Shown: positions 24,855-45,783 of the stretch, piece by piece | How positions within the stretch are numbered: position 1 is the stretch's first letter | Layout: each line of letters starts with the position of its first letter | Origin: a virus | Strand: one strand, 5' to 3' | DNA: 50,098 nucleotides | Virus record (IMG/VR): IMGVR_UViG_3300006919_000086 | Span: 1 to 50,098 of that record | Notes under the pieces: generated by a model | Seen by the model: the letters and a program-made list of their open reading frames with translations, nothing else | The model's database searches: none | Told to the model about the DNA's origin: nothing | Translations under genes and position numbers: made by a program

Positions 24855-27800
24855 ATGAGTACTTACAAAAAGTTCAAGTCTGAAAATATTCGAATTTCAC
24901 CATTGGAGATGAATAAGGGCTTTACTTTTTCAAGTGGAGATACTCTAACAGGTTCAAATACCAATATTGACAGATTCATAGGAATCCAAGGTGATTATTT
25001 GTCAACCCAATCTGAAACAGGACAAATCCCAGGAGAAGAACAATATAAAGTTCTTATTTATGATTCCATAAAACAACTTTACTATACCAATTATATATCG
25101 GGAAGTGGAGGTAGAATTTCTAATGCTAATACTGCTAGTTTTAATACTGATGGAACTGTAAGTCCCCTTTTAGGGTCTGATCCAAGATATCAAACTAGTT
25201 ATTATAATTATGAAGAAACTACTTTAAACCCCCAAAAAACATTTAACACTGAAAGTATAGGGGTTATATCTATTCCTAATAGATTATATGGAGATAATAT
25301 CGAACCTGGTTCTTTTTTCATTAATGCCCCTAGTAGTGGAGGTTTATATGATGATGGGGAAGGAAGAATATTTAGTAAAGGTGAAGGAGACACAGGAACA
25401 TATTATGTAGGTAATATTATTTACCAACATGGTATCATTACTATTACAGATCAACCTGCTAGAGAAATTATTGTACCATCTACAACTCCAACACCATCAC
25501 TTACACCATCAAGAACTCCATCACTTACTCCTACCAAAACACCAACTCCTTCAATTACAAGAACACCAAGTATTACAAGAACACCAAGTATTACCCCTTC
25601 AATTACAAGAACACCAAGTATCACCAGAACCCCTTCTAGAACTCCTGATGTAACAAGAACACCAAGTATCTCAGTAACACCAAGTATAACTAGAACGCCT
25701 AGTATTACACCTTCGATTACTAGAACACCTTCAATTACAAGAACTCCTAGTGTAACAAAAACACCAAGTCTTACTCCTTCAATTACTAGAACCCCTAGTA
25801 TAACTCGTACACCAAGTATAACAGTTACCCCTAGTATATCAATAACACCTACTCCAAGTATTACTAGAACCCCTTCATTAACTAGAACACCAAGTATCAC
25901 TAGAACACCTGGTGCTACAGTTACACCTAGTATCTCAACTACTTTAACACCTAGTGTATCTATAACAAGGACACCTACAATTACAAGAACCCCTAGTATA
26001 ACAGCTACACCTTCGATTACTAGAACACCATCAATCACTAGAACCCCTAGTGTATCAACAACTCCACCACCTAGTGTATCTATAACAAGAACACCTTCAA
26101 TAACAAGAACTCCTAGTATAACAAGAACACCTAGCATAACTGCAACCCCATCTATTACTAGAACACCTAGTGTATCAATAACTCCTCTACCTAGTGTATC
26201 TATAACAAGAACACCTACAATTACAAGAACCCCTAGTATAACTCGTACACCGTCAATTACTAGAACACCTAGTAGAACAGTTACACCTAGTATTTCAACT
26301 ACTTTAACACCTAGTGTATCAATAACAAGAACACCATCAATCACTAGAACTCCTAGTATTACTAGAACCCCAACAGTTACTAGAACCCCCTCAATAACTG
26401 TAACCCCTACAAGAAGTATTGGAGCTTCTCTTACACCTACTCCTACAAGAACACCATCAATCACTAGAACCCCTAGTATCACTAGAACCCCAACAGTTAC
26501 TAGAACCCCTAGTATATCAGTAACTTTAACTCCTAGTACATCAGTAACAAGGACACCAAGTATTACTAGAACCCCTAGTATAACAGCTACACCTTCAATT
26601 ACTAGAACCCCTAGTATAACAGCTACACCTAGTATTACTAGAACCCCTAGTATTACTAGAACTCCAAGTATAACCCGTACTCCTAGTATTACACCTTCAA
26701 TCACCAGAACTGCTAGTATAACAAGAACACCTAGTGTTACTAGAACACCCAGTATAACCCGTACTCCTAGTATTACACCTTCAATCACAAGAACTCCTAG
26801 TATTACTAGAACCCCAAGTGTAACTTCTACCCCATCAATTACTAGAACACCTAGTATAACTAGAACTCTATCAATCACTAGAACTCCATCAATTACTCCT
26901 TCAGTTACTAGGACTCCAAGTATTACTAGGACTCCAAGTATAACAGCAACACCTTCTATTACTAGAACACCAAGTATAACAGCTACACCTTCAATTACTA
27001 GAACTCCATCTATTACTAGAACCCCTTCTAGAACACCTGATGCAACAGTAACTCCTAGTATTACTAGGACTCCAAGTATAACTCGTACCCCTAGCATTAC
27101 CCCTTCTATCACTAGAACACCAAGTATTACTAGGACTCCTAGCATAACAGCTACACCTTCTATTACTAGGACTCCTTCTATAACCCCAAGTATAACCCGT
27201 ACCCCAAGTATAACTGTTACACCTTCAATTACAATAACACCATCAATTACTAGAACACCATCAATTACTAGGACTCCATCTATAACACCAAGTGTCACTA
27301 GAACACCAAGTATAACAAGAACACCAAGTATAACAGCTACACCTTCTATTACTAGAACCCCTAGTATAACTCGTACTCCTAGTATAACAGCTACACCATC
27401 AATCACTAGAACCCCCTCCAAAACCCCTGATGCAACTAGAACACCTAGTATAACTCGCACCCCTAGTATTACAAGAACACCTAGTATAACGGCTACTCCT
27501 TCAATTACTAGAACACCTTCAATTACTAGAACCCCTAGTGTAACAAGAACACCTAGTATCACACCTTCTATTACTAGAACCCCAAGTATTACTAGAACCC
27601 CAAGTATAACTGCTACACCTTCTATTACTAGAACACCAAGTATAACAAGAACACCTAGTATCACACCTTCTATTACTAGAACCCCAAGTATAACCCGTAC
27701 CCCAAGTATTACTGCTACACCTTCTATAACAAGAACTCCTAGTGTAACAAGAACACCAAGTATAACAGCTACACCTTCTATTACTAGAACCCCTTCTATT

Positions 27801-30800
27801 ACTAGAACGCCATCAATTACTAGGACCCCTAGTATTACAACCACCCCTTCTATTACTAGAACTCCTAGTATAACTCGCACCCCTAGTATAACAGCCACTC
27901 CCTCTATTACTAGAACACCTAGTATTACACCTTCTATTACTAGAACACCAAGTATAACTGCTACACCTTCTATTACTAGAACCCCCTCTAGAACTCCTGA
28001 TGCAACTAGAACACCTAGTGTAACCAGAACACCTTCAATTACCAGAACACCTTCAATTACTAGAACACCAAGTATAACAAGAACACCCAGTATTACTCCT
28101 TCAATTACTGCCACACCATCAATCACCAGGACTCCTAGTATTACCAGAACTCCATCTATTACACCTACAATTACAAGAACCCCCAGTATAACCCGTACAC
28201 CATCAATTACTAGAACCCCTAGTATAACTCGTACACCTTCTATCACCAGAACACCTAGTATTACTGCTACACCTTCAATTACTAGAACCCCTAGCATTAC
28301 TCCTTCAGTTACAAGAACACCGAGTATTACAAGAACACCAAGTATAACAGCTACACCTTCTATTACTAGAACGCCATCAATTACTAGAACACCATCAATT
28401 ACTAGAACACCAAGTATAACAGCTACACCTTCTATTACTAGAACCCCTTCTATAACCCCAAGTATCACAAAAACTCCTAGTATTACTAGAACTCCATCTA
28501 TTACACCTACAATTACAAGAACACCAAGTATAACAGCTACACCTTCTATCACCAGAACACCCTCCAAAACTCCTGATGCAACTAGAACACCTAGTGTAAC
28601 TAGAACACCTTCAATTACTAGGACACCAAGTATAACTGCCACCCCTTCAATTACTAGAACCCCTTCTATAACCCCAAGTATAACTCGTACCCCTAGTATA
28701 ACAGCTACACCTTCAATTACTAGAACCCCTTCTATAACCCCAAGTATAACTCGTACCCCTAGCATAACAGCCACACCATCAATCACCAGAACACCTAGTA
28801 TTACTGCTACACCTTCTATAACAAGAACTCCTAGTGTAACAAGAACACCAAGTATAACAGCTACACCTTCTATTACTAGAACTCCAAGTATTACAAGAAC
28901 ACCTAGTATAACAGCTACACCGTCAATTACTAGGACTCCAAGTATAACCCGTACACCTAGTATAACAGCTACACCGTCAATTACTAGAACACCTAGTGTA
29001 ACAAGAACACCAAGTATTACTGCTACACCATCAATCACTAGAACCCCTTCTAGAACACCAGATGCAACTAGAACACCAAGTGTAACTAGAACTCCATCTA
29101 TTACTAGAACCCCATCAATCACTAGGACTCCATCAATTACTAGAACACCAAGTATAACTGCTACACCTTCAATAACAAGAACTCCTAGCATTACTAGAAC
29201 TCCTTCTATTACACCTTCTATTACAAGAACCCCATCAATTACAAGAACACCAAGTATAACTGCTACACCTTCTATTACAAGAACTCCTAGTATAACTAGA
29301 ACCCCATCAATTACAAGAACCCCATCTATCACTAGAACTCCTAGCATAACCAGAACTCCTAGTATTACACCTTCAATTACTAGAACACCTAGTATTACTA
29401 GAACTCCCTCTATAACTCCTAGTATTACTAGAACACCAAGTATAACTAGAACCCCTAGTATAACTAGAACTCCTAGTATTACACCATCAATTACTAGAAC
29501 ACCAAGTATCACTAGAACTCCATCAGTTACTAGAACACCAAGTATCACTAGAACTCCTAGTATAACAGCTACACCTTCAATTACAAGAACTCCTTCTAGA
29601 ACCCCTGATGCAACTAGAACACCTAGTGTAACTAGAACTCCATCTATTACTAGGACTCCTAGTATAACTCGTACTCCTAGTATTACTAGAACTCCATCAA
29701 TAACAGCTACACCTTCAATAACAAGAACTCCTAGTATTACTAGAACACCAAGTATTACTCCTTCAATTACTAGAACACCAAGTGTGACTAGAACTCCATC
29801 AACCACCAGGACTCCTAGTATCACTAGAACTCCATCTATTACACCTACAATTACAAGAACCCCCAGTATAACAAGAACACCCAGTGTCACTAGAACTCCA
29901 TCTATTACTAGAACCCCTAGTATTACACCTTCAATCACAAGAACACCAAGTGAAACTAGAACTCCATCAATTACTAGGACTCCATCAATTACTAGAACCC
30001 CTAGTATTACACCTACAATTACAAGAACTCCCAGTATAACAAGAACACCTAGCGTAACTAGAACCCCTAGTATTACAAGGACACCTAGTATTACTGCTAC
30101 ACCTTCAATTACTAGAACACCAAGTATAACAAGGACACCTTCAATTACTAGAACCCCTAGTATAACAGCTACACCTTCAATTACTAGAACACCAAGTATA
30201 ACTCGCACTCCATCAATTACCCCTGACCCAACAAGAACTCCTAGTATAACAAGAACACCTTCAATCACAAGAACACCTAGTATCACTAGAACCCCTAGTA
30301 TAACGGCTACACCATCAATAACAAGAACTCCATCTATTACTAGGACTCCATCTATTACTAGAACACCTTCTAGAACACCATCTATCACTAGAACTCCCAG
30401 TATAACTCGTACCCCTAGTATAACGGCTACACCTTCAATTACTAGAACCCCTAGTATTACAAGAACAGCTTCAAGAACACCCTCAATAACACCTTCTAGA
30501 ACACCTTCAATAACGCCAAGTATAACTCGTACTCCTAGTATTACAAGGACACCAAGTATAACCCGTACCCCTAGTATTACAAGGACACCTAGTATTACAA
30601 AAACTCCATCTATAACCCCAAGTATAACCCGCACTCCTAGTGTAACTAGAACACCTAGTACTACTAGAACACCAAGTATTACTAGAACCCCTAGTATTAC
30701 AAGGACACCTAGTATTACTGCTACACCTTCCATTACTAGAACACCAAGTATAACTCGCACCCCATCAACTACTCCTGATCCAACTAGAACACCTAGTATT

Positions 30801-33800
30801 ACTAGGACACCAAGTATTACTAGGACACCAAGTATTACTAGGACACCAAGTATAACTCGCACCCCTAGTATTACTGCTACACCTTCAATTACTAGAACTC
30901 CATCTATCACTAGAACCCCTTCTAGAACACCATCTGTTACTAGAACACCTAGTATTACTAGGACACCAAGTATTACTAGGACACCAAGTATAACTAGAAC
31001 CCCTTCTAGAACACCATCTGTTACTAGAACACCTAGTATAACCCGTACCCCTTCAATTACTAGAACCCCTAGTATAACGGCTACCCCATCAATAACAAGA
31101 ACCCCATCTATTACCAGGACTCCATCTATCACTAGAACTCCTAGTATAACCCGTACCCCTTCAATTACTAGAACCCCTAGTATAACGGCTACACCTTCAA
31201 TCACCAAAACCCCATCAATCACCAGAACACCAAGTGTAACTAGAACACCTTCTAAAACACCATCAATTACTAGAACACCAAGTATTACTAGAACCCCTAG
31301 TGTAACTAGAACTCCATCTATCACTAGAACTCCTTCAAAAACACCATCTATAACAAGAACACCTTCTATAACAAGAACACCTAGTGTAACTAGAACACCA
31401 AGTATAACAAGAACTCCCTCTATAACCCCTAGTATTACTAGAACTCCTAGTGCAACTAGAACACCAAGTATTACTAGAACCCCTAGTGTAACTAGAACTC
31501 CATCTACCACTCCTGACCCAACAAGAACACCTAGTGTAACTAGAACTCCTAGTATAACTAGAACCCCATCTATCACTAGGACCCCATCTATAACTCCTAG
31601 TATAACTCGCACTCCTAGTATAACTCGCACACCTTCTATTACAAGAACACCTAGTAGAACACCTAGTATTACTAGAACACCTAGTATAACCCGGACACCT
31701 TCTATCACTAGAACTCCTTCAAGAACACCATCTATAACAAGAACACCATCTATAACAAGGACACCAAGTGTAACAAGGACACCAAGTGTAACAAGAACAC
31801 CTAGTAGAACACCTAGTGTAACAAGGACACCTAGTGTAACAAGGACACCATCTATAACAAGAACACCTAGTAGAACACCTAGTATAACTCGCACCCCTAG
31901 TATAACTCGTACACCATCTATCACTAGAACTCCCAGTAGAACACCTAGTATAACAAGAACACCTAGTGTAACAAGGACACCATCTATAACAAGAACACCA
32001 TCTATAACAAGAACACCTAGTAGAACACCATCTATAACAAGAACACCTAGTGTAACTAGAACTCCTAGTATAACTAGAACCCCATCTATTACTAGAACCC
32101 CTTCTAGAACACCATCTGTTACTAGAACACCTAGTATTACTAGGACACCAAGTATTACAAGGACACCAAGTATTACAAGGACACCTTCAAGAACACCATC
32201 TATAACAAGAACACCTAGTATTACTCGCACCCCTAGTATAACTCGTACACCATCTATCACTAGAACTCCCAGTAGAACACCTAGTGTAACAAGAACACCA
32301 TCTATAACAAGAACACCTAGTGTAACAAGAACACCTAGTAGAACACCTAGTATAACTAGAACTCCTAGTATAACTAGAACACCTTCTATCACTAGAACAC
32401 CTTCAAGAACACCATCCATCACTAGAACTCCTAGTATAACTAGAACACCATCTATCACTAGAACCCCATCTATCACTAGAACCCCTTCAAAAACACCATC
32501 TATAACAAGGACACCAAGTGTAACAAGAACACCATCTATAACAAGAACACCTAGTGTAACTAGAACTCCATCAATTACTAGAACCCCTTCTATTACTCCA
32601 ACAAGAACACCTAGTATATCAATTTCACCCTCTATTACACCATCAATTACTAGAACCCCCTCAGTTTCACCTATTCCTTCTTTTACCTATACATTAAGTA
32701 ATAATGGACCAGTGGATGGTATGGTATTTAGATATAAACCTGATGGAGGTTGTTATATTCCAAAAACTTTAACAGTTACAGTAGATGCAGAAAGCTTTGT
32801 AGTTATTTGTGCATGTTCAACCCCAGCCCCAGTATATGAAAGTGGTGGAGGTGGTTCAGGAAACTCTAGTGTAGTACAAGGAGCTCCGTGTAGCTTACAA
32901 AGTCCAACACCAACTCCATCTATAACAAGAACTCCTTCTATAACTCCTAGTATTACTAGAACACCTAGTTTAACCCCTACTAGAACAATAACACCTAGCC
33001 TTTCACCCCCAGCAACTTATGATGTCACTGTAAGAGAATGTCATGGATCCCCTACTACTTATGGATTTAGATTTGATACTACAAGTCCACCAATAGTAGG
33101 AAATGTTATTACTGTAAGTGGTAATGCCTTTGTAGAAGGTAAACAATGGGAAGTTATAGATTTTAGCCCTGGAAGTATAGACTATAATGTTACTCTATTA
33201 ACTGTTTCTGCCAACTGCCCTTCTCCAACACCAACACCTACATCAACACGAACCCCATCACGTACACCTTCATTAACAAGAACACCTTCTAAAACACCTT
33301 CTAAAACACCTTCGTTAACTAGAACTCCTAGTAGAACCCCATCTATTACAGCTACACCCTCACTTACCCCTCCAGCAACTTATGATGTAACAGTTAGAGA
33401 ATGTACTGGTTCTCCTACTACTTATGGATTTAGATTTGACACTACAAGTCCACCTTCTGTAGGAAATTCTATTACAGTAAGTGGTAATGCTTTTGTAAAT
33501 GGTAAAGATTGGGAAGTTTTAAACTTTAGCCCTTCACAAATAGATTATACTGTTACATTATTAACAGTTTCAATTAATTGTGCTGCAGTTATTAGTCGTA
33601 CTCCTACCCCTACAAGAACTCCTTCATTAACTAGAACACCCTCAATTACTAGAACCCCTAGTATAACTCGCACCCCTTCTATTACTAGAACCCCTAGTAT
33701 AACACGTACCCCTAGTAATACAAGAACTCCTAGTATAACTCGCACCCCTTCTATCACTAGAACTCCTAGTATAACACGTACTCCTTCTATTACTAGAACC

Positions 33801-35708
33801 CCTAGTATAACTCGCACCCCTTCTATTACTAGAACACCTAGTATAACAGCTACACCATCAATAACAAGAACACCTAGTATAACTAGAACACCAAGTATCA
33901 CTAGAACCCCATCTACTACCCCAGGTGAAACCCCTTCTAGAACCCCATCACGAACACCTAGTATAACTAGAACACCAAGTATCACTAGAACCCCATCTAC
34001 TACCCCAGATGAAACCCCTTCTAGAACCCCATCACGAACACCTAGTATAACTAGAACACCTAGTATAACTAGAACTCCAAGTACAACAAGAACCCCAAGT
34101 ATAACAAGAACACCTAGTGTAACAAGAACTCCTTCTTTAACACGTACTTTAACACCAACTAGAACACCAAGTGAATCTCCTGGTGCTACTCCTTCAAGAA
34201 CACCAAGTATAACACCTTCACCTTCAATTACAAGAACACCTAGTGTAACAAGAACACCAAGTGTAACAAGAACACCAAGTGTAACTCGCACCCCTAGTAT
34301 TACAAGAACACCTAGTATTACAAGAACACCCTCAGCATCTCCTGCAGGAAGTAACATTACTTTTATAACATCTGGTTCATTAATAGTAGATACAGGTGGA
34401 GAAACTTTATCCATCACAGGCATTCAAGCAGATGATCTTATAATAGTCACAGGAACATCTGACAGTGTACAACCAGATACCCCTTCAGGATTTACATTTT
34501 TAGAAGATGATGAAGGCTCAAACAACCCAGGAGGAGTAGCATCATATAAATTTGCAACAGGTACCTCAGAAGATGTTACTTTACCTAATCAAGGAGGTTC
34601 AGGAGCAAATCAAATTATATGGGCATATCAAGTATTTAGAAATGTTAGTACTACTCAGCCAATTGAAGCCAGTTCACAAAACCATAATGATGGTACAAAT
34701 CGAATTAATCTCCCATCAGTAAATACTACAGTATCTAACTGTATGATAGTAGTATATGGAATGATAGATGATGATGGATATGCTCAAGGAGCCATATCCC
34801 TCCCTTCAGGTTATACAGAAGGAGTATTTAATGCCACTGGAGTAGGATTAAATTCAAATTTTTCTACTGTTATTGGAGGTTATAAATTAGAATCTTCCAC
34901 AGGTACAATTAGTCCTGGAGCGATACTTCTTACTGAAAATGATGGTAGAGATGGATATACAATAGCATTAAGACCTGATACTGCACCTGATCCTTCTCCA
35001 ACTCCAACACCATCAAGAACCCCTTCTATAACAAGAACACCAAGTATAACTCCTACACGAACATTAACACCTTCACCATCTCGTTCCCAGGGTGCACCAG
35101 CAGATGATATTACATTTGTTGCAGATACAACAGGTGATATAGTCAATGGAGGTACTGTAACATTGTCTGGTATACAATCAGGAGATGTAGTTGTAGCTAA
35201 TCTAACAAGTGGATTTACAGGTATAGGTCTTAGTAGTGGATGGACAAATGTACGAAATAAAAACTCTGATTTATATCAAAGAGTGGCATATATAGTATCA
35301 ACTGGAACAAGTGTCACTTATACTGTACCGGGTGGAGATTACTGTGCAGTAGTTTTAACTGCATTTAGAAATGTTGATAATACAACACCTTTAGATGTAA
35401 CAAGAACAACCGTAAACCGAAATAGTAACCAAACTAATATAACACCTAATGATATTACAACAGTATCAAATGGTAGTATGATAGTTACTATGATGGGAGT
35501 AGGAGGAAATAGAACATCAAGCCTTACCGGACCTTCAGGTTATACTAATTCAGAAGTAGTCAACGGCGGTAGTTTTTTCGGCATTCAGTCTACAAATAGT
35601 ATAGATTATAAACTTCAAACAACAGCAGGAACTGAATCACCCGGTGCTTACAACTGGACTTCAGGTGAATTTTCAACATGTACTACATTAGCACTAAGAA
35701 AAGCTTAA
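24855..35708 (+). CDS. giant TPSITR-repeat fibre protein (3617 aa)
   Basis: Residues 1-206 match the N-terminal domain of the preceding gene. Residues about 207-2605 are an almost unbroken tract of the hexad T-P-S-I-T-R and variants ([30 protein letters not shown]). Then come a Cys/Gly-rich domain (about 2608-2683), two copies of the VTVREC domain (about 2720-2788 and 2841-2912) and a second TPS tract (about 2914-3165). Two related β-domains close the protein (about 3167-3378 and 3415-3617), both with GIQ-D and P-GY signatures and ending IALRP or LALRK. The tract is rich in Arg, hence very basic, and rich in Thr/Ser, which makes it mucin-like. Pro every six residues favours an extended stalk. 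Likely an exceptionally long tail fibre with distal binding domains. The neighbouring glycosyltransferases suggest it may be glycosylated, which is inference. Confidence 0.8.
25480..32675 (+). repeat. 18-bp periodic tract encoding TPSITR hexads
   Basis: About 7.2 kb in phase with an 18-bp period, roughly 400 hexads by length. The protein motif is kept while codons are scrambled: Ser as AGT, AGC, TCA, TCT, TCC, TCG; Arg as AGA, AGG, CGT, CGC, CGG; all Thr and Pro codons are mixed. TPD-containing units recur every 490-740 bp over most of the tract. Confidence 0.9.
33871..34038 (+). repeat. 84-bp tandem duplication
   Basis: Two adjacent 84-bp units (33871-33954 and 33955-34038) differ in one base only (GGT to GAT, Gly to Asp). 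The 28-residue unit adds [18 protein letters not shown]-type sequence. It is in frame and looks recent. Confidence 0.85.
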
Positions 35709-35895: not shown

Positions 35896-35897
35896 AT

Positions 35898-36407: not shown

Positions 36408-36423
36408 AAATTAAAAATTTTAA

Positions 36424-36432: not shown

Positions 36433-36447
36433 TTATAATATAAAAGT

Positions 36448-36786
36448 ATGGCTACCCCTAGGGATATTTATAATAATTTTTTAAATACATACATTACTGG
36501 TTCTGATGTAACAATGTCATTCTCTAGTTCTTATACAATTTTTGAAACTCAATATAATTGTATTATAGGAGCAGATGAATATAACTATTCAAACAATCCT
36601 ACACTACTTTCTGGAAGTGAAGGGTTTGTATATGATTTTGTAACAGGTTCTTATTTTGCTCCTTATGTTACTACTATAGGACTATATGATAATGATTTTA
36701 ATTTGTTAGCAGTAGCAAAATTAGCAAAACCCCTACCTACATCTAAAATTACAGACACTAATATTATTATTAATATAGATAGATAA
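36448..36786 (+). CDS. small structural protein, paralogue of the 21158 C-terminal domain
   Basis: A 112-residue protein. Residues about 30-112 align with the C-terminus of the 342-residue protein at 21158. Shared features are Y-NC-I or FV-RA before an aromatic NYS-NPT or NYTENPS segment, then SGS-G-V, YV-TTIGLYD or YATTVGMYN, and LLAVAKL(A/S)KPL. It appears to be a stand-alone version of this domain, perhaps a fibre cap or a competing subunit. It is the last structural gene before the sugar operon. Confidence 0.7.
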   Translation: MATPRDIYNNFLNTYITGSDVTMSFSSSYTIFETQYNCIIGADEYNYSNNPTLLSGSEGFVYDFVTGSYFAPYVTTIGLYDNDFNLLAVAKLAKPLPTSKITDTNIIINIDR

Positions 36787-36791
36787 AATTA

Positions 36792-36823: not shown

Positions 36824-36840
36824 AATATAAGTTATACATA

Positions 36841-38259
36841 ATGGGTAAACATAAAGGTTTAGGTGATTCTATAGAAGTTTTTACTAGATACACTGGTATA
36901 AAATGGTTAGTTAAAAAAATAATAGGTGAAGATTGTGGTTGTGATGAAAGACAAGAAAAACTTAATAAATTAGTTTCCTATAAACAAAATAAAAAAGACA
37001 CCATCTTTATACAGATGGCAGCTTATAGAGACCCTGAACTAGTTAATACTCTTGAAGATCTTCTTGCAACAGCTAAACACCCAGAAAATTTAAGAATTTG
37101 TATAGCATGGCAACATTCAGATGATGATGTATGGGATATAATTCCAGAAAAATTTTGGAATGATAAAAGGTTTAATATTCTTGATATACCCTATGAACAA
37201 GCAGAAGGAGTATGCTGGGCTCGTAATTTAATCCAACAATATTATAAAGGAGAAAGATATACATTACAATTAGATTCCCATCATAGATTTGTTCAAAACT
37301 GGGATGAAGAATTAATTCTTATGTATAAAGATCTACAAAATAAAGGCAGTAAAAAACCCCTAATTACTTCATACCTCCCATCATATTTCCCAGAAAATGA
37401 CCCTGGGGGAAGACTTCAAGAAGTATGGAAAATGGATTTTAATAGATTCACTCCTGAAGGGTATATTTTTACTTTTCCCTCTTTAATTGAGGGGTGGCAA
37501 GATAAAACATCACCACTCCCAGCAAGATTTTATTCTGCCCATTTTGCTTTTACTACAGGTAAATTTGTTGAAGAAGTTCCCCATGATCCTAACATGTACT
37601 TCCATGGTGAGGAACCTAGTATAGCAGCTAGGGCTTTTACTTGGGGTTATGATTTATTTCATCCCCATAAAATTATAGGTTGGCATGAATATACAAGGGA
37701 AGGGAAAAAAAGACATTGGGATGATAGTGATGATTGGCAAGAAAAAGATGATTCTTCACATTTTAGATATAGATTAATGCATGGTATGGATGGATTAACT
37801 TGTAGTCCTTGTGCCCAAAGAAAGTTAAAACCATATTATTTCGGTGAAGAAAGAACATTAGAAGAGTATGAAAAATATATAGGAGTTAGGTTTAAAGATA
37901 GAAAAGTACAACAATATACTTTAAATTTAAAATACCCACCTAACCCCAAACCTTATGATTATGAAAATTCATTATTATCTCATTTTAAACATTGTATTGA
38001 TATTCACACCACTCACTTTAAAGAATTAGATTATGATTTTTGGGTAGTATCTTTTGAAAAGGAAGATGGAACAGTTATATCTAGAGAAGACGCCGACATT
38101 AATGAAATTCATAGTTTAATGTCTACAGCAGAAAATGGAGATGGAGTAATTAGAATTTGGAGGGAATTTTTTGGAGAATACCCAAATAAATATATTATAT
38201 GGCCTCATTCTAAATCTAAAGGATTTATAACCGAGGAACGAATAGAAAAAGTATTATGA
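36841..38259 (+). CDS. GT60-like (GlcNAc family) glycosyltransferase 1
   Basis: A 472-residue enzyme. The catalytic domain (about 53-330) shows AAYRDPEL (60-67), WARNLI (126-131) and the metal/nucleotide-binding motif LQLDSHHRF (142-150, Asp-Ser-His as DxD variant). These are the hallmarks of the PF11397 GlcNAc family, to which CAZy GT60 belongs, including Skp1 hydroxyproline GlcNAc transferase and trypanosomal Thr GlcNAc transferases. A later segment HGYDLFHPH-like (WGYDLFHPHK) is also conserved. The C-terminal 120 residues are a domain shared with the next gene. The N-terminal 50 residues are an extra basic helix and the motif DCGCDERQEKLN (31-42), perhaps a metal or partner-binding tag. 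It probably transfers a sugar from UDP-GlcNAc or a similar donor. The acceptor is unproven. Confidence 0.8.
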   Translation: MGKHKGLGDSIEVFTRYTGIKWLVKKIIGEDCGCDERQEKLNKLVSYKQNKKDTIFIQMAAYRDPELVNTLEDLLATAKHPENLRICIAWQHSDDDVWDIIPEKFWNDKRFNILDIPYEQAEGVCWARNLIQQYYKGERYTLQLDSHHRFVQNWDEELILMYKDLQNKGSKKPLITSYLPSYFPENDPGGRLQEVWKMDFNRFTPEGYIFTFPSLIEGWQDKTSPLPARFYSAHFAFTTGKFVEEVPHDPNMYFHGEEPSIAARAFTWGYDLFHPHKIIGWHEYTREGKKRHWDDSDDWQEKDDSSHFRYRLMHGMDGLTCSPCAQRKLKPYYFGEERTLEEYEKYIGVRFKDRKVQQYTLNLKYPPNPKPYDYENSLLSHFKHCIDIHTTHFKELDYDFWVVSFEKEDGTVISREDADINEIHSLMSTAENGDGVIRIWREFFGEYPNKYIIWPHSKSKGFITEERIEKVL

Positions 38260-39518
38260 GAAAAATAATGTTACATCTTCCTGCTTATAGGGAACCCGAA
38301 TTAATACCTACTATTAAGGATGCTTTAGCCCAAGCTAAACACCCTGAAAGAATACACTTTGGAATTTGTAGACAATACAATCCAGAGGATGGTTTTGATA
38401 ATATAGATGAATACAGAGATGATCCTAGATTTAAAATTTATGATATGCCCTATGAAAAGGCTAAGGGACTAGCCTATGCTAGAGCAATTATAAATGATAA
38501 ATTATTAGAGGACGAAGATTTTGTTTTACAATTAGATTCTCATCATAGATTTGATAAGCATTGGGATTCTACTTTAATTGGGTGGTATGATGAACTAAAA
38601 GAAGAGGGACATAATCCTTTAATTTGTGGTTATTTGCCTTATTATAATCCATTTAACGATCCTAAAGATAGGGTACAAGAACCTTGGTATAGTGAAGCAG
38701 CTTCTTTTTATCCTCATGGTACTATCTTTATTAGACCCACAGGATTCAGAGAAGACTGGAAAAAATTAACCAAACCAGCCCCTGCAAGGTTTATTTCAGG
38801 TCATTTTTGTTTTGGTCCTAATGAATGGGCTAAAACTATTAAACATGATCCTGATATTTTCTTTGCAGGAGAAGAAATTAACCTCACAGTAAGAAGTTAC
38901 ACCCATGGTTATGATTTATTTCACCCTCATAGAGTTGTAGTTTGGCATGCTACTATGAGAGAAGAACGTGATGGTATGTTAGTATGGGATGATCAATATA
39001 AAAGAGGTGAAGATGCTTGGTGGAAAGAAAATGATAGAGGTAGATCTAAAATACGTCAATTATTTGGTATAGAAGATAATGGATTTGATCTAACTGGGTA
39101 TGATTTAGGAACAGTTAGAACTTTAAGAGATTATGAAAAATATGCCGGCATACATTTTGAAAAAAAATCCTTTCAAAAATATACTAAAGATAATTTTTTT
39201 CCTCCTAATCCTGTAATTGAAAATGAAGAGGAATGGGAAAACAGCTTTATGGTTTCTTTTTATCATTTAGTGGATGTTCAACCTGAATATTTACAAGGTA
39301 AGGATTATAATTTTATTTTAGTTGCTTTTGATGATGAAAATGGTATAGGTATAGATTCTGAATTTATAGATGATAATAGATTAAAATTATTTTTAAGTGA
39401 AAATAAACCTATACATTACGAAAAAATGTTTATGACTGATAAAACCCCATCTAAAGTAATATACTGGGGCCATAGTGAAACAAGAGGATGGGCCGAAAAA
39501 CACGAAATTAACCTTTAA
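38256..39518 (+). CDS. GT60-like (GlcNAc family) glycosyltransferase 2
   Basis: A 420-residue paralogue of the preceding gene, joined by ATGA. Matching motifs are PAYREPEL (9-16), YARAII (74-79), LQLDSHHRF (91-99), PARFISGHFCFGP and HGYDLFHPHRVVVWHATMRE. The C-terminal domain with VDVQPEYL and VIYWGHSETRGW matches IDIHTTHF and IIWPHSKSKGF of its neighbour. The N-terminal DCGC extension is missing here. The two enzymes have diverged throughout, so they may have different acceptors or act in sequence, for example core sugar first and extension second. Confidence 0.8.
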   Translation: MRKIMLHLPAYREPELIPTIKDALAQAKHPERIHFGICRQYNPEDGFDNIDEYRDDPRFKIYDMPYEKAKGLAYARAIINDKLLEDEDFVLQLDSHHRFDKHWDSTLIGWYDELKEEGHNPLICGYLPYYNPFNDPKDRVQEPWYSEAASFYPHGTIFIRPTGFREDWKKLTKPAPARFISGHFCFGPNEWAKTIKHDPDIFFAGEEINLTVRSYTHGYDLFHPHRVVVWHATMREERDGMLVWDDQYKRGEDAWWKENDRGRSKIRQLFGIEDNGFDLTGYDLGTVRTLRDYEKYAGIHFEKKSFQKYTKDNFFPPNPVIENEEEWENSFMVSFYHLVDVQPEYLQGKDYNFILVAFDDENGIGIDSEFIDDNRLKLFLSENKPIHYEKMFMTDKTPSKVIYWGHSETRGWAEKHEINL

Positions 39519-40489
39519 TGAGTAAAACAGCATTAATAACAGGAATTACAGGACAAGATGGTTCATATCTTGCAGAATTATTATTATCTAAAGGTTATAA
39601 AGTAATAGGTACAATTAGAAGACACTCTTTTAATACAAATTTATCTAACACCAGAATTTCCCATCTAGTTGATAAGATAATATTAGAATATGCTGATGTA
39701 ACTGATTTAGATTCTTTACAAAAAGTTACTAAAAAATATCACCCGGATGAACTTTATAATTTGGCAGCCCAATCTGATGTTAGAATTAGTTTTGATAATC
39801 CTGTTTATACTAATAATACTATATCAACAGGTACCCTAAATGTGCTAGAATGTATAAAAAATATATCCCCTACTACTAAAGTATACCAGGCTTCTTCTTC
39901 AGAAATGTTTGGAAACAATATAGATAAAGATGGGTATCAAAGGGAAACTACTCCTTTTAATCCTAATAATCCTTATGCTTGTTCCCGTGTATTTAGCTAT
40001 AATATATGCAATACCTATAAAGAGGCATATGATATGCACATTAGCACAGGAATAGCATTTAATCACGAATCTCCACGAAGAGGAGATAATTTTGTTACTA
40101 CAAAAGTTGTAAAGGGAGCAGTTAATATCTATAAGAACCAACAAGATAAATTAAAATTAGGAAATTTAGATGTTTATAGAGATTGGAGCCATGCTAAGGA
40201 CCATGTTAATGCTATGTGGCTTATCTTACAACAATCTACCCCTGATAATTTTATATGCTCATCCGGGGAACTTAATAGTTTAAAGTATTTATGTGAATAT
40301 GTTTTTTCAAGTTTAGGTATGGATTATGAAAAATATATTGAAACTGACCCTAATATGTTAAGACCTAAAGAAATTAAGTTAACAAAAGGAGATCCTTCTA
40401 AATTAGAAAAAGTAACTGGGTGGAACCGTAAGTATAGTTTTAAGGAAATGTTAGATGAAATGATAGAATATTGGAAGGATAAACTATGA
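39518..40489 (+). CDS. GDP-mannose 4,6-dehydratase-like enzyme
   Basis: A 323-residue short-chain dehydratase/epimerase fold enzyme. The NAD(P) motif TGITGQDG is at 8-15, the GMD-type IRRHSFNT at 34-41, the active-site SSSEMFG at 126-132, and the family-specific FNHESPRRGDNFVT at 181-194. A C-terminal RPKEIKLTKGDPSKLEKVTGW-type segment is typical of GDP-mannose 4,6-dehydratases, which start GDP-fucose, rhamnose and perosamine pathways. Odd: the usual catalytic Tyr-xxx-Lys reads YACSR (153-157), with Arg (codon CGT) in place of Lys. At 323 residues it is somewhat shorter than the common 340-375. It would supply a deoxysugar donor for the operon unless the Lys change alters or removes activity. 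No gene for the next step is in view. Confidence 0.8.
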   Translation: MSKTALITGITGQDGSYLAELLLSKGYKVIGTIRRHSFNTNLSNTRISHLVDKIILEYADVTDLDSLQKVTKKYHPDELYNLAAQSDVRISFDNPVYTNNTISTGTLNVLECIKNISPTTKVYQASSSEMFGNNIDKDGYQRETTPFNPNNPYACSRVFSYNICNTYKEAYDMHISTGIAFNHESPRRGDNFVTTKVVKGAVNIYKNQQDKLKLGNLDVYRDWSHAKDHVNAMWLILQQSTPDNFICSSGELNSLKYLCEYVFSSLGMDYEKYIETDPNMLRPKEIKLTKGDPSKLEKVTGWNRKYSFKEMLDEMIEYWKDKL

Positions 40490-41508
40490 AGAAAACCAAT
40501 AATAAATTACTAATATTTCATTCTGCAATAGGACCAACATATAAAAAAAGGTTTTTAACAAATATAAAAAATTTTCCTGCTTATAAATACTTTGATATTT
40601 TAGTAATGACTGATGATGTCGAATATTTTAGTTCGGTATCTCATATGGATAACATTTTTATAGAAGATATTTTTGATATAAGAAAAGATTACCCTTGGTC
40701 TATTGAACATGAAATTTTTCCCAAAGAAAAAAGAGATGAAGTTGAGTATGCCAATGAATTAATGGATTATACTAATGTTACGTATAAGATACAACTTCCA
40801 AGTTTTTTCCATAGATTTGCTTTAAATTGGAAACATTCCCAAGAATATAAAGGATTTTTATTTCCCTGTTTAGATGTTCATCCTATAATAAGTGATGATG
40901 ATCAATTTAAAAAATTTGAAAGTTATTTTACTTTGCATAATGAAAATGAAAGAATTACTTTTTTACCCTGTGGTGAAATTGATAAAAATCATTTAACCTA
41001 TTCTAGGTTAAAAGAAAATTCTGATAGTCTAAATGAAACTTTAAATATTAATCCATCTCCACCTAACATATTCCACCATAGTGACCATAATGTTTTCTTT
41101 TTAAAGGTACCTAATAAAAATGATATTCCACTACTTTTTAAAACTTTAAATAATATATGTAAAGAAGTTATTTTAAAACCACAAAAATATTTCTATTTAA
41201 ATGGGCATTCAATGTGGAGGCTACACGCAGAACATATATTTGCTATTGCTGGGAATTTATTAGAATTTGAATTTCCTCCAAAACCAATCCCATTATGTTT
41301 TGGTTCACATCCTGGACATCACTGGAAAATATGTTGTTATCCTGAGGATAGGTTTTGGAATTTTTATTACCCTTTTGTATTTGGAGCTACTCCATATGAA
41401 TTAATACCATCTCAAAAAGGGCAAGAAGATTTTATACAAAATAATTTTGAGTCCCTAAAAGCTTTTTATAGATTACGTTTACAACCATTTCCTTATACAA
41501 AAAAATAA
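40486..41508 (+). CDS. unknown protein of sugar operon, possible glycosyltransferase
   Basis: A 340-residue protein overlapping its neighbours in the operon (ATGA upstream). It starts with an α/β stretch (LLIFHSAIGPTYKKRFL, FDILVMTDD) like the first strands of a GT-A glycosyltransferase, and LDVHP (129-133) might serve as the acidic motif. Later parts are rich in His and aromatic residues (HSMWRLHAEHIF, GSHPGHHWKICC). No family recognised with confidence. Operon context makes a sugar-transfer role plausible. Confidence 0.55.
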   Translation: MKKTNNKLLIFHSAIGPTYKKRFLTNIKNFPAYKYFDILVMTDDVEYFSSVSHMDNIFIEDIFDIRKDYPWSIEHEIFPKEKRDEVEYANELMDYTNVTYKIQLPSFFHRFALNWKHSQEYKGFLFPCLDVHPIISDDDQFKKFESYFTLHNENERITFLPCGEIDKNHLTYSRLKENSDSLNETLNINPSPPNIFHHSDHNVFFLKVPNKNDIPLLFKTLNNICKEVILKPQKYFYLNGHSMWRLHAEHIFAIAGNLLEFEFPPKPIPLCFGSHPGHHWKICCYPEDRFWNFYYPFVFGATPYELIPSQKGQEDFIQNNFESLKAFYRLRLQPFPYTKK

Positions 41509-41511
41509 ATT

Positions 41512-42381
41512 ATGATTAAATACTTAAAACCCTACAAAACTGACTCTCCTAAAATTAGATTAGGAGCTAACCAAGATGGAGGTTATGTTGCTTCCCAAAT
41601 TGCTTTCGAAAAATGTGATTTTTTAATGGCTTATGGCTATGGAGGTGATAAAACTTATGAAGATGACTTTGCTAAAAAGTTTAATAAACCTGTCTATTTA
41701 TTTGACCACACAGTACCAGATAATAAGTGGACTCAAGGACTAGTAAATTTCTTCCCAGAGGGGTTAGGTTCTGATAATGTAAATGAAGCCGAAAAGTTAT
41801 ACCATATTTCTCAACTTGAAGATAATATTAATAGTCTAAACACCCACTTAAAATCTCTCCAAAAAAATATAAGTACTGATGATTTAAAAAAATCTATAGG
41901 TGCTTTAGACCAATTTAAAGCCCAATTAATGGGATTAAATGATATTATTAGTTTAAAAGGAGTAAGAGAACACTATAATTCTTTAAATTTAGAAGGTAAG
42001 GCTTTTTTAAAAATAGATACTGAAGGAGCGGAGTATGGGTACTTTTATGATACTGATATTAAAGATTTAGCTTCATTTGTAACTGGGATGACTATTGAAT
42101 TCCATAATCTTGAACAACCTATTTATCAAACTAAATTAGGTGTAATAATGGAAAAGTTAAAAAATAATTTTATATTAACCCACATACATGGAAATAACTG
42201 GGGGGGTGAAATACAAATTGGGAATTATACAATACCTAGAGTAGTAGAATTATCATTCCTTAATAAAGAATATGCTTCTAATATTGAAGTTGATAATACT
42301 TCTTATCCTTTACCTAATTTAGATTTTGCTAATAATCCAAATATCCCGGATTGTAATATGGAATTTTTGAATCAAATATAA
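41512..42381 (+). CDS. FkbM-type methyltransferase with coiled-coil insert
   Basis: A 289-residue enzyme with the FkbM signature LKIDTEGAEYGYF (166-178) and an N-terminal R-GANQDGGYV segment (16-26) seen in this family. FkbM enzymes use S-adenosylmethionine to O-methylate sugars or polyketides, and in sugar operons usually act on glycan hydroxyls. Residues about 98-145 are a helical, heptad-like insertion between the early strands and the DTEGAE motif, which is not usual. It lies 3 bp after one gene and 3 bp before the next. Methylation of the glycan made by this operon is the natural guess. Confidence 0.75.
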   Translation: MIKYLKPYKTDSPKIRLGANQDGGYVASQIAFEKCDFLMAYGYGGDKTYEDDFAKKFNKPVYLFDHTVPDNKWTQGLVNFFPEGLGSDNVNEAEKLYHISQLEDNINSLNTHLKSLQKNISTDDLKKSIGALDQFKAQLMGLNDIISLKGVREHYNSLNLEGKAFLKIDTEGAEYGYFYDTDIKDLASFVTGMTIEFHNLEQPIYQTKLGVIMEKLKNNFILTHIHGNNWGGEIQIGNYTIPRVVELSFLNKEYASNIEVDNTSYPLPNLDFANNPNIPDCNMEFLNQI

Positions 42382-42384
42382 AAT

Positions 42385-43224
42385 ATGATTTATATATCTT
42401 TAACTACAGTCCCCCAAAGACTAAGTAATTGGGAACATTTTAAAGTAAATTTAGACTCATTAGTCAATCAAAAGACAAATAATGAGTATAAAGTTATACT
42501 AAACATTCCTTATTTCTATAAAAATAAAGAAATAGAATATGAAATTCCCCAAGAATTACTTGATTATCAACTACAAAATAATAAATTAATAATAAATAGA
42601 GTAGAGGAAGATTATGGGCCTGTAGTTAAACTAACTGGTGTATTAGAATATACTCAAAATCCTGATGATATTTTAATTGTTTTAGATGATGATCAAAAAT
42701 ATCATGAGGAAATGTTAGAATATCATTTGAAAAAAAGAGCTCAACATCCTGAAGATATTATTTGTTTTAGGGGAGATATACCTTTAAGAAAAGTTACATG
42801 GGAAGATGAAAATCAAAAGTTCCTTATGTTTAGAACTACTCATAGATATTTCCCTGTACAATCTGATTGCTACATGAGAATCCCAGGTCATTGGCATTCT
42901 GTAGGATATAAAAGAAGTTTTTTTGATGAGGATTTTCTTTCTAATGAAAATTTATCTATATCAGTTAATGATGATATTATTTGTAGTTATTATTTTTTGA
43001 AAAAAGAAATATTTTTTAGATGTGTTTTTTGGGATAAGGAAGTAGATTGGAGACCAGTAAACGATAATGGAAGAGGAGCTTGGAGTTTTCCAATAGTAGA
43101 ACAATTACCTGCCTTTGAGGCTTTTGGAGAATTTAGAAAACAAAATGGAGATCATCTAGGAAGAACTGATAGTGAAGCATTCAATTTTATATCTAATTAT
43201 GAAACTATATACAAAATAAAATGA
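42385..43224 (+). CDS. GT-A glycosyltransferase (first of a tandem pair)
   Basis: A 279-residue enzyme. It starts MIYISLTTVPQRLSNW, followed by β-α units and the metal-binding triad Asp-Asp-Asp in VLDDDQKYH (99-106). A second conserved region has a SVGYKRSFFDEDF segment, and VNDDIICSYYF is an acidic helix that may supply the base. Its order resembles small GT-A enzymes of capsular polysaccharide operons. The next gene is a paralogue, overlapping by ATGA. Donor and acceptor are unknown. Confidence 0.7.
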   Translation: MIYISLTTVPQRLSNWEHFKVNLDSLVNQKTNNEYKVILNIPYFYKNKEIEYEIPQELLDYQLQNNKLIINRVEEDYGPVVKLTGVLEYTQNPDDILIVLDDDQKYHEEMLEYHLKKRAQHPEDIICFRGDIPLRKVTWEDENQKFLMFRTTHRYFPVQSDCYMRIPGHWHSVGYKRSFFDEDFLSNENLSISVNDDIICSYYFLKKEIFFRCVFWDKEVDWRPVNDNGRGAWSFPIVEQLPAFEAFGEFRKQNGDHLGRTDSEAFNFISNYETIYKIK

Positions 43225-44069
43225 GTAAAGTAATTTTAACCCTAACTACAATCCCATCAAGATTAACGGCAACTCATGATGAAGGAATTAAAGCAAACCT
43301 ATCATCATTATTAAACCAATCATATGAGGATTATGAAATACACTTTAATGTTCCCAAGTTATCCACAAATACTGGAAAAACATATGAAATTCCTGAATGG
43401 ATAAGAACCTTATCAGAGGAAAACCCTAAATTTAAAATATTTGAAGATGTATTAGATATAGGACCTATCACTAAATCTTTTTATACTATTAATAGGAGTA
43501 CTGATCCGGAAGATATAATTATTGTAGTAGATGATGATTTAGTGTACCATGAAGATTTAATTAGTGAACATATAAATAACCAAGAAAAATTCCCAGGATG
43601 TGCTGTTGGATATGATGGAATGAGATCTAGAGATAATTTTTTTAATGATCAAAGAGATCATTATTTTACTTCTAATTATAAATCCTCAGTTGTTGATGTA
43701 TTACAACATTATAAATCTATATCCTATAAAAGGAAATATTTTGAAGATGATTTTAATGAATTTTTTAGAACTAACTCTGATCAATGGAATGATGATTATA
43801 TTATATCAGCATATTTAGCTACTAAAAATATAGATAGAATTGCTACTTACCATAGTTCAGATACAAAATTTGAAACTTTAGATGAATGGATAAATGGTGG
43901 TGGTGTAGCTACATTCCCTGTTTTAAGACATACTGCTCATGAAGGTCAAGAAGGGTGTTGGTATTTTAGAAACAATCCTGAAATTAAGGAAAAAGCCCTC
44001 CAATTATTAATAAAATATATAGACCCAGAAAGACATAGATATCTCCAAAATTTACAAAACAATGGATAA
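43221..44069 (+). CDS. GT-A glycosyltransferase (second of the pair)
   Basis: A 282-residue paralogue of the previous gene. Matching parts are LTLTTIPSRL at the start, VVDDDLVYHEDL (102-113) with the Asp triad, SISYKRKYFEDDF, and WNDDYIISAYLATK. Sequence has diverged considerably, so duplication is old. It ends in a helical tail with LQNLQNNG. It overlaps the next gene by 8 bp. It may add a different sugar from its partner. Confidence 0.7.
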   Translation: MSKVILTLTTIPSRLTATHDEGIKANLSSLLNQSYEDYEIHFNVPKLSTNTGKTYEIPEWIRTLSEENPKFKIFEDVLDIGPITKSFYTINRSTDPEDIIIVVDDDLVYHEDLISEHINNQEKFPGCAVGYDGMRSRDNFFNDQRDHYFTSNYKSSVVDVLQHYKSISYKRKYFEDDFNEFFRTNSDQWNDDYIISAYLATKNIDRIATYHSSDTKFETLDEWINGGGVATFPVLRHTAHEGQEGCWYFRNNPEIKEKALQLLIKYIDPERHRYLQNLQNNG

Positions 44070-45783
44070 AAACTATACTATAGTTTCAGGTTTATGGGAT
44101 TTAAACAGGGGGGAGCATCTAAATGATGGTAGAAAATTTGAGGACCATTATTTACCTAGGTTTAAAGAATTTCTCCAAATAGATGCATATATGATACTTT
44201 TTATTCCCTTGGAATTAGAAGAATTTGTATGGAAATATAGAAATACCTCTAATACACTTTGTCGCATAATGGAATTAGAGGACATAAAAAATGGTTTATA
44301 TCAACCTCATTGGGACCAAACCCAAAAAATAAGAGCCAATCCTGATTGGCTAAAAATCACAGGAGAAGGAGGATGGTTAACTAATAGCCCCCAGGCTAAA
44401 TTAGAATACTATAATCCAATAGTACAATCTAAAATGTTTATGTTGCATGATGCATCTATTTTTAATCATTTTAACACTGATTATTATTATTGGGTTGATG
44501 CTGGTTTAACAAATACTGTACCTTTTACCCATTTAGCTGAAAATAAATGTTTAGACAATTTAAATAAATATGTAGATTCATTTTTATTTTTGGGCTATCC
44601 ATATGATGCTACAGATGAGATTCATGGGTTTAACTTTGAACAAATGAATGAAATCGCTGGGGAAAAAGTAAAATATGTTTGTAGAGGAGGATTATTTGGT
44701 GGACATAAAGATTATATTAGAGAAGCAAATGGTACTTATTATTCTTTATTAAATTCTACTTTAGAAAAGGGTTTAATGGGAACTGAAGAAAGTATTTTTG
44801 CTATTATGGCTCATAAAGAGCCTCATATTTATAGAAATTTTATGCTAGATGGAAATGGTTTAGTAGTAAAATTTACAGAAGCATTAGTTAAAGATAATGT
44901 AAAATTGCAACCAATTCCTAAAAACTATAAACCCACCCCTAAAGTTATAGACCAGGAACACATTAGTAATCTTAAAACTAATTTATATATATTAACCTTT
45001 AACTTCCCAGAACAATTACTTCACACTATAGAATCAATGAAAAAAGTTCCTGAATGGCTTGAAAAACCCCATTTAGTTCTTTTAGATAATTCTACTAATA
45101 GTAAGGCTAAAACTAAAAATAAAAGAATAGCTAAAAAATATAATTTTGAATATATTCACTTAGGTAAAAATTCTGGTATATGTGGGGGTAGACAAGCAGC
45201 AGCAGAACACTTCCACGAATCAGATGCTGATTACTATTTCTTTTTTGAGGATGATATGACATCTAATAATCAAGAAGAAGAAGGAAATTTTTGCAGAAAT
45301 GGTTTAAGAAAATATATACCTAATTTATATGAAATTTTACATAAAATTATTATAAAGGAAGATTTTGATTTCTTAAAATTGTCATTTACTGAAGTTTATT
45401 GGGACAACAATATTCAAACTAGTTGGTATAATGTACCTCAAAATATTAGAACAGAATTTTGGCCTGATTATGATAAATTACCCATCAATGGGTCAGATCC
45501 TAATGCCCCTAGAACTAAATTTAATATAGTAAATAACGTAGATGGTATTTCTTATATAGATGGAGAAGTAACTTATACTAACTGGCCTATGATTATGTCT
45601 AAAAAAGGCAACCAAAAAGTATTTATAGATACAAAGTGGGCTAATCCTTATGAACAAACTTGGATGTCATATGTTTTCCAAGAACAGAAAAAAGGTAATA
45701 TTAAAGCTGCTGTTTTATTAGCTTCCCCAATATGGCACGATAGAATAAAATATTATAAGCCTGAAGAACGAAGAGAAAATTAA
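44062..45783 (+). CDS. two-domain glycosyltransferase (HtrL-like plus GT2-like)
   Basis: A 573-residue fusion. The N-terminal domain (about 1-290) looks like the WlaTC/HtrL family of putative sugar transferases: IVSGLWDLNRG at the start, the acidic YYYWVDAGLT (141-150), and GGLFGG (209-214). The C-terminal domain (about 305-573) begins NLYILTFNFPEQL, has LDNS (341-344), GKNSGICGGRQAA (368-380) and the metal motif FFEDDM (394-399) of GT2-type enzymes. Two active domains in one chain suggest successive additions. It is the last gene of the operon before a TATTTATAA motif and a nuclease gene. Confidence 0.7.
   Translation: MDKNYTIVSGLWDLNRGEHLNDGRKFEDHYLPRFKEFLQIDAYMILFIPLELEEFVWKYRNTSNTLCRIMELEDIKNGLYQPHWDQTQKIRANPDWLKITGEGGWLTNSPQAKLEYYNPIVQSKMFMLHDASIFNHFNTDYYYWVDAGLTNTVPFTHLAENKCLDNLNKYVDSFLFLGYPYDATDEIHGFNFEQMNEIAGEKVKYVCRGGLFGGHKDYIREANGTYYSLLNSTLEKGLMGTEESIFAIMAHKEPHIYRNFMLDGNGLVVKFTEALVKDNVKLQPIPKNYKPTPKVIDQEHISNLKTNLYILTFNFPEQLLHTIESMKKVPEWLEKPHLVLLDNSTNSKAKTKNKRIAKKYNFEYIHLGKNSGICGGRQAAAEHFHESDADYYFFFEDDMTSNNQEEEGNFCRNGLRKYIPNLYEILHKIIIKEDFDFLKLSFTEVYWDNNIQTSWYNVPQNIRTEFWPDYDKLPINGSDPNAPRTKFNIVNNVDGISYIDGEVTYTNWPMIMSKKGNQKVFIDTKWANPYEQTWMSYVFQEQKKGNIKAAVLLASPIWHDRIKYYKPEERREN

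Follow-up and report, generated by a model that had tools for sequence, protein, structure and literature searches.

Can a virus of bacteria coat its own tail with mucin-type sugars? The question is raised by IMGVR_UViG_3300006919_000086, an incomplete IMG/VR virus record that is probably a fragment. Its 50,098 bases (hereafter the window, that is, the whole stretch analysed) contain two adjacent genes of the glycosyltransferase family GT60, which start 1.1 kb downstream of an open reading frame (ORF) of 3,617 amino acids (aa), within a tail cassette. To our knowledge, glycosylation of phage virions is known in few cases only, and mucin-type initiation by GT27 or GT60 enzymes has been characterized in eukaryotes. 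An initial annotation of this locus had proposed that the phage makes its own glycan coat on the giant fibre. On the basis of the family, fold and conserved active-site motifs of the enzymes, their position in the tail locus, an ancestral tail gene split by a Thr/Pro/Ser-rich stalk, and the statistical coupling of GT60 genes with Thr/Pro/Ser-rich ORFs, we consider it probable that the phage encodes a cytosolic mucin-type O-glycosylation system for its own tail stalk, in which GT60 starts the sugar chains and HtrL_YibB and GT2 enzymes lengthen them. Genes are named by their first position in the window and those described below are on the plus strand; related loci carry L numbers.

GT60 enzymes of the window

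The assignment of both genes to the PF11397/GT60 group, first made from the motif LQLDSHHRF, was borne out by profile search. The products of 36841 (36841..38259, 472 aa, GT60-A) and 38256 (38256..39518, 420 aa, GT60-B) matched PF11397 with 233.9 and 168.3 bits, respectively (cut-off 21), over profile positions 1-351 in two stretches. Both contain QLDSHHRF, with a DxH metal motif instead of DxD, and D145 and H147 of this motif, G256-E257-E258 and a C-terminal histidine (H282) are invariant in 64 phage and bacterial homologues. Because a PDB sequence search with the GT60 profile gave no match, a fold search was used. The AlphaFold2 model of the 36841 enzyme was confident (predicted local distance difference test score, pLDDT, 93; predicted template modelling score, pTM, 0.86), and its first 29 PDB fold matches were all GT27 polypeptide N-acetylgalactosaminyltransferases (ppGalNAc-transferases), including human GalNAc-T2, T4, T12 and T7, mammalian T1, Drosophila PGANT9 and Toxoplasma GalNAc-T3. 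Polypeptide GalNAc-transferases start mucin-type chains on Ser/Thr. In both GT27 and GT60, DxH replaces DxD, and the two retaining families fall in one clade of a GT-A survey (PMC7185993). The Trypanosoma cruzi GT60 gene TcOGNT-2 encodes the activity that makes alpha-linked N-acetylglucosamine (GlcNAc) on Thr of mucins, using uridine diphosphate (UDP)-GlcNAc and Mn2+ (PMC3769586).

In the phylogenetic tree 38256 and 36841 stand apart: 38256 falls in a slowly changing, seven-member clade of phage paralogues with a long branch (support 100/100), and the two genes are therefore not the result of a recent duplication. They probably do different jobs, with 36841 as the proposed initiating polypeptide transferase and 38256, an old distinct paralogue, as a proposed second acceptor-site or second-step transferase. 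Two GT60 genes were present in only 6 of 57 distinct loci. A search of the available literature for PF11397 or GT60 in phages found no relevant paper. It should also be mentioned that residues 1-50 of GT60-A (36841-36990) are a separate helical phage mini-domain (CGCDxRQExLN) fused to the enzyme, which elsewhere occurs as its own ORF of 64-66 aa upstream of GT60 (L020-L025) and as a free-standing protein of 56 aa in a podovirus (MW202828.1).

A mucin-like stalk within a tail-locus protein

The two upstream fibre genes had been described as having linkers dominated by Thr, Ser and Pro, and the composition of their products agrees with this description. The first, 22194 (22194..24827, 877 aa), has an N-terminal domain in common with the second, followed by mucin-like segments split by a repeated domain. 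The second, 24855 (24855..35708), encodes the giant mucin-like protein of 3,617 aa that we propose as acceptor, with 1,005 Thr, 547 Pro, 570 Ser and 383 Arg residues and 244 exact TPSITR units. Thr/Pro/Ser-rich segments cover 586 residues of the former and 3,013 of the latter; these segments, of 3,599 residues in all (30% T, 17% P and 16% S), are long, of low complexity and mucin-like. The DNA repeat period in 24855 is 18 bases. An unconditioned comparison of neighbouring 18-nt units on the plus strand gave 460 differences at codon position 3 versus 172 at position 1 and 113 at position 2, with AGY/TCN serine swaps accounting for some of the differences at positions 1 and 2, and it is therefore the peptide, not the DNA, that selection keeps. 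A minus-strand ORF of 2,341 aa (25451-32476), rich in Val, Leu, Gly and Ile, was rejected as a gene, being the mirror of the TPSITR array.

Comparison with related phages revealed how the stalk is placed. In 47 relatives, its place is occupied by one intact gene of 280-420 aa (mostly ~320), the N-terminal part of which matches the N-domains of 22194 and 24855, whereas the C-terminal part matches a separate gene downstream of the stalk, 36448 (36448..36786). Residues 1-210 of the 24855 product are homologous both to this intact gene and to gp105 of Flavobacterium phage immuto. The 36448 product, the C-terminal half of the ancestral tail-locus protein, shares 63% identity with the C-terminal part of L274:16604 and also has a homologous region in immuto gp105 (residues 235-329). 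Thus, the ancestral tail gene is in two pieces in the window, L095 and L015, with the stalk and a small gene, 35898 (35898..36407), lying between them; the homologues of 35898 in the two relatives (L095:1216 and L015:9077) are likewise kept between stalk and C-terminal half. The 35898 protein has a possible S-adenosylmethionine (SAM)-methyltransferase-like motif (GGLGIGFLPYW, recognized by eye) and matched no Pfam family. Since the split halves flank the stalk, the stalk grew inside a tail-locus protein, and this origin is the strongest indication that it would be part of the virion.

Coupling of GT60 with Thr/Pro/Ser-rich ORFs

If the two kinds of genes work together, they should also occur together elsewhere. 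We classed an ORF as Thr/Pro/Ser-rich if it contained a 60-aa stretch in which there were 12 or more Thr and 9 or more Pro+Ser, and in which T+P+S made up at least 55%. Such an ORF was found within ~10 kb in 44 of the best 80 phage GT60 loci ranked by similarity to the window, versus 3 of 80 control loci fetched with the operon's own GMD-like (GDP-mannose 4,6-dehydratase-like) gene (p=1.5e-13). One of these three control loci was L095, the closest relative of the window, where GT60 is present too. After removal of near-copies from the GT60 set, the fraction was 25/52 versus the same 3/80 (p=1e-9), and in 13 of these 25 loci the ORF ended <500 nt upstream on the same strand, compared with an expectation of 3.2 for genes drawn at random from these loci (p=5e-5). 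Within the window's own tail lineage, only 4 of 80 tail loci had a Thr/Pro/Ser-rich ORF, and GT60 occurred solely alongside it (p=2e-5). A scan for NodU carbamoyltransferases yielded only 9 loci, too few to serve as a control.

The reciprocal test started from 50 contigs picked only by a DNA pattern coding TPS/I-type repeats; 75 of 80 loci from the pattern scan were verified as real Thr/Pro/Ser-rich ORFs. PF11397 was present in 21 of the 50 contigs, versus 1/49 lineage contigs and 4/50 GMD contigs (p=9e-7 and 1e-4, respectively), and in none of 22 contigs picked with the reversed pattern, many of which were short. Among records of at least 100 kb, Thr/Pro/Ser-rich repeats were found in 9/10 with GT60 versus 4/15 without (p=0.004).

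Tail cassette and operon partners

The backbone of the window is closest to immuto. Two conserved tail-locus genes, 20492 and 21158 (20492..22186), form the left border of the cassette, outside the system; they are 78% and 50% identical to their immuto homologues (76-78% for 20492), and the gene order around 20492 is the same in both phages. The right border, also outside the system, is a SegE-type GIY-YIG protein (45807..46286; PF19835, 85 bits), which is also found in L015, L095, L274 and L331; immuto and Microcystis phage Mel-JY01 have a gene at the corresponding position. The content between these borders is exchangeable and differs among relatives: tail fibre and spike genes in immuto, other tail genes in Mel-JY01, and, in the window, an operon of eight genes preceded by two Thr/Pro/Ser-rich ORFs and two small genes. 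The glycosyltransferase genes of the window thus sit within or beside virion structural genes.

Besides the two GT60 genes, the operon contains three further glycosyltransferase genes, as the initial annotation had noted, and all junctions from 36841 to 45783 are tight (-8 to +3 nt). Two of the three are GT2-like, 42385 (42385..43224; PF00535, 22.3 bits with a cut-off of 23.3, clustering with 43221) and 43221 (43221..44069; PF00535, 24.7 bits). The third, 44062 (44062..45783), is an HtrL_YibB domain fused to GT2 (PF09612, 39.5 bits; PF00535, 25 bits) and the proposed chain-extending transferase. HtrL_YibB was the most constant partner of GT60: of 57 distinct phage GT60 loci, 42 contained a relative (67/67 on the same strand), usually fused to GT2 like 44062; relatives of 43221 occurred in 8 of the 57 (15/15 on the same strand). 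An HtrL_YibB gene also lies near GT60 in Xanthomonas phage XacN1 (L009:20312-21952) and adjoins it in Saprospiraceae (L178:11437-13143). NodU-type carbamoyltransferases, GT2, FkbM-like and nucleotide-sugar genes differed between GT60 loci. Such a combination of a constant HtrL_YibB with varying other genes is as expected if initiator and extender form a fixed pair and the caps vary. It suggests that HtrL_YibB (PF09612, a family of unknown function) is a glycosyltransferase that would act after GT60.

The genes for donor and cap sugars are less clear. Gene 39518 (39518..40489), named as GMD-like by the initial annotation, matched PF16363 with 357.8 bits and scored 345 bits against the NCBIfam gmd equivalog TIGR01472, under its cut-off of 415, and is hence called only GMD-like here. 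GMD by itself yields only a keto-sugar intermediate, and no GDP-fucose or rhamnose reductase was recognized beside the gene. The gene annotated as an FkbM methyltransferase, 41512 (41512..42381), matched PF05050 weakly, with 19.3 bits under a gathering cut-off of 22.7. The claim that donor synthesis, transfer and capping are united in one operon is therefore weak; donor synthesis would be partial at best, and we regard 39518 and 41512 as optional donor-sugar and capping genes, respectively. The remaining protein, 40486 (40486..41508, 340 aa), is unassigned: searches of Pfam, PHROGs and NCBIfam gave no hit. Across the operon, no protein contains a strongly hydrophobic membrane segment (maximum 19-residue Kyte-Doolittle value, KD19, 1.15).

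Comparison with known systems

One isolated counterpart is phage XacN1, whose ORF334 is a GT60 homologue of the window with 45% identity. It also encodes an HtrL_YibB protein, a Thr/Pro/Ser-rich ORF350 that lies 12 kb from GT60 beside a structural gene, and a giant ORF325 with a TPTP-rich C-terminus that adjoins baseplate genes. In the available part of the XacN1 report, virion proteomics gave 'at least two glycoproteins', which its authors suggest are due to the phage glycosyltransferases ORF328/ORF334 (PMC5852040). XacN1 differs from the window in having a single GT60 and a carbamoyltransferase in place of GMD, and the glycoproteins and their linkage are unnamed in that part of the report. 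In the isolated Stenotrophomonas phage RAS14, the gene for a GT60 with 40% identity is close to that for a giant protein whose tail is Thr/Pro-rich.

Among eukaryotic enzymes, the GT60 alpha-GlcNAc-transferases TcOGNT-2 and Dictyostelium Gnt1/Gnt2 share the family and the DxH motif with the window enzymes. Known GT60 members also place alpha-GlcNAc on hydroxyproline of cytosolic Skp1. The window type differs in that it is found in phages and bacteria, shares an operon with HtrL_YibB/GT2, has an extra C-terminal domain and lacks a membrane anchor; its activity is predicted. The GT27 ppGalNAc-transferases that initiate animal mucins provide the closest solved folds and share the retaining clade, the DSH metal motif and Thr/Ser/Pro-rich acceptors; at 11-16% identity, the window enzyme is no sequence member of that family, has no recognized lectin domain, is predicted to be cytosolic and belongs to a prokaryotic/viral setting. 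Phage-encoded glycosyltransferases also decorate virion proteins in mycobacteriophages, where, according to Freeman et al. 2023 (cited in PMC12619734), capsid and tail-tube subunits bear the glycans at their C-termini; the available parts of these reports (PMC12619734, PMC11256854) describe no GT60 coupled to a mucin-like stalk.

Bacterial GT60 relatives

GT60 genes of bacteria adjoin small exported proteins consisting of a twin-arginine leader and a Thr/Pro/Ser-rich domain. These were found in Jiulongibacter (L176:8959-9747) and Bacteroidota (L178:8555-9700, with a type IX secretion system (T9SS) sorting domain at its C-terminus, and L179:2684-3412), and further ones at L207:8478-10019 (where the genes overlap), L220:10042-10521 and L217:13282-13752 (1.7 kb from GT60). 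Thr/Pro/Ser-rich ORFs were adjacent in 6 of 13 bacterial loci versus 1.7 expected (p=8e-4); Actinobacterial loci were excluded from this statistic because high-GC composition inflates Thr/Pro-rich ORFs. Twin-arginine export handles proteins already finished in the cytosol, and such clients would therefore fit glycosylation in the cytosol. The Saprospiraceae-type GT60s of L178 and L179 fall inside a phage clade (with L047 and L053; support 99/95), which suggests gene flow between phages and bacteria.

In addition, in 12 Burkholderiaceae loci (L186, L195, L199, L201, L202, L203, L204, L211, L212, L213, L215 and L218) GT60 lies ~3.7-4.0 kb from a VgrG with a C-terminal repeat containing about one Ser/Thr per unit. 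Phage_GPD, Gp5_trimer_C and Phage_base_V domains were identified in the four VgrGs scanned. The repeats include (PT)n, PPPTE, PEPST, PPQTEE, DETP and PPPSEE; their sequence drifts between species and the hydroxyl residue is kept. VgrG is the type VI secretion homologue of the tail spike, and GT60 is therefore tied to tail machines twice. This uncontrolled count could reflect one inherited gene order and is taken as a lead, and glycosylated type VI secretion spikes in Burkholderiaceae are possible. Tentatively, and with opinion among us slightly on the doubting side, GT60 plus HtrL_YibB may be a cytosolic prokaryotic counterpart of animal mucin-type O-glycosylation, coating Thr/Pro/Ser-rich appendages of contractile-tail machines (phage tails and VgrG spikes) and exported twin-arginine/T9SS surface proteins, with HtrL_YibB extending the chains and the genes moving between phages and bacteria.

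Alternative explanations

It is unlikely that the operon instead remodels host surface sugars (lipopolysaccharide (LPS) or capsule) during infection, for example against superinfection, with the neighbouring fibre genes being incidental. Such a role would suit the position of HtrL_YibB among LPS-core genes in Escherichia coli, the frequency of GMD and GT2 in polysaccharide islands and the habit of phages of carrying surface-modifying enzymes. What makes it less likely is that enzymes with the GT60/GT27 fold act on polypeptides, that no flippase, polymerase or lipid-linked initiating transferase was recognized among the operon genes by Pfam scan, and that GT60 loci are rich in Thr/Pro/Ser ORFs whereas loci of the sugar gene GMD are not; the operon also lies inside the tail cassette. 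The enzymes might also glycosylate another protein, such as the capsid, the tail tube or a host protein, the stalks being coincidental in large aquatic phages, as the mycobacteriophage glycans on capsid and tail-tube subunits (PMC12619734, in its available part) and the numerous GT60 loci (about half) with no nearby Thr/Pro/Ser-rich ORF, as well as such ORFs without GT60, would allow. We think this improbable, given that the coupling holds in both directions, tail-matched controls included, that the ORF is often immediately upstream, and that the coupling recurs in bacteria with unrelated Thr/Pro clients. Modification of phage DNA (hypermodified bases), the task of many phage glycosyltransferases, seems most improbable: the weak match of 44062 to beta-glucosyl-hydroxymethylcytosine (HMC)-alpha-glucosyltransferase (phrog_842, E 7.5e-4) is confined to its GT2 domain, GT60 is no DNA-modifying family, and no base hydroxymethylase was recognized among the window proteins scanned.

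Several observations weigh against glycosylation of the tail stalk itself. The GT60 loci were ranked by similarity to the window, and in 36 of the 80 no Thr/Pro/Ser-rich ORF was present at a distance of up to ~10 kb; for 32 of them the whole record gave no pattern match, although most are fragments. The initial annotation had held that finding, in related phages, the fibre without the operon and the operon without the fibre would refute its proposal, and this was partly the case: L274 and L331, from the window's lineage, have Thr/Pro/Ser-rich tail proteins and no GT60 in the contig, and for some other phages with GT60 the recovered contig contained no ORF of this kind. GT60 was also missing from about 10 of 12 GMD contigs with the repeats, and the sequence around TP showed no clear acceptor-motif difference between phages with and without GT60. 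The window stalk is Arg-rich (10.6%), unlike T. cruzi mucins. A model of the anchor domain (the intact gene, 42 sequences, pLDDT 79) had no significant PDB match and resembled no known tail structure, so that the label 'fibre' rests on position, not fold. As for XacN1, the identities of the glycoproteins are not given and no tail fibres were seen by the authors, as far as the available part of the report goes (PMC5852040). Finally, the evidence is comparative rather than chemical, and a glycan on the window fibre is a prediction. GT60 may thus be only one among several modifiers, and other clients are possible for some GT60s. In a separate observation, the cassette of L274 (11723-16585; also L339:3295-6152) contains two sulfotransferases and an adenosine 5'-phosphosulfate (APS) kinase with Thr/Pro/Ser-rich tail proteins and no GT60; a fibre of this type is perhaps sulfated rather than glycosylated.

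Proposed mechanism and implications

The glycan coat on the fibre proposed by the initial annotation thus gains clear support from GT60 membership, the ppGalNAc-transferase-like fold, two-way coupling, adjacency and the XacN1 glycoproteins, and its chemistry remains predicted. From this evidence we infer what the enzymes do, which donor they use, which residues they modify and in what order the steps run, and also that the stalk reaches the virion and is of benefit there. Late in infection, GT60-A and, in the window's lineage, GT60-B would be co-expressed with the stalk. In the cytosol, they would move a sugar, most likely alpha-GlcNAc from host UDP-GlcNAc, onto Thr (and Ser) of the 22194 and 24855 stalks. 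The HtrL_YibB-GT2 protein (44062) and the GT2-like enzymes would then lengthen the chains, and the GMD-like and FkbM-like genes may optionally supply or cap variable sugars. The finished stalk would be anchored via the N-domain of the tail-locus protein and assembled into the tail as a stiff, hydrated, sugar-coated appendage.

If this is true, large aquatic phages of a common type produce a mucin coat for themselves, and this would have consequences for adsorption, for binding to mucus or particles and for how such phages are recognized. The analysis also offers a lead to the function of PF09612 (HtrL_YibB) and of the Ser/Thr repeat tails of some bacterial VgrGs, and a soluble bacterial polypeptide glycosyltransferase would serve the production of mucin glycopeptides.

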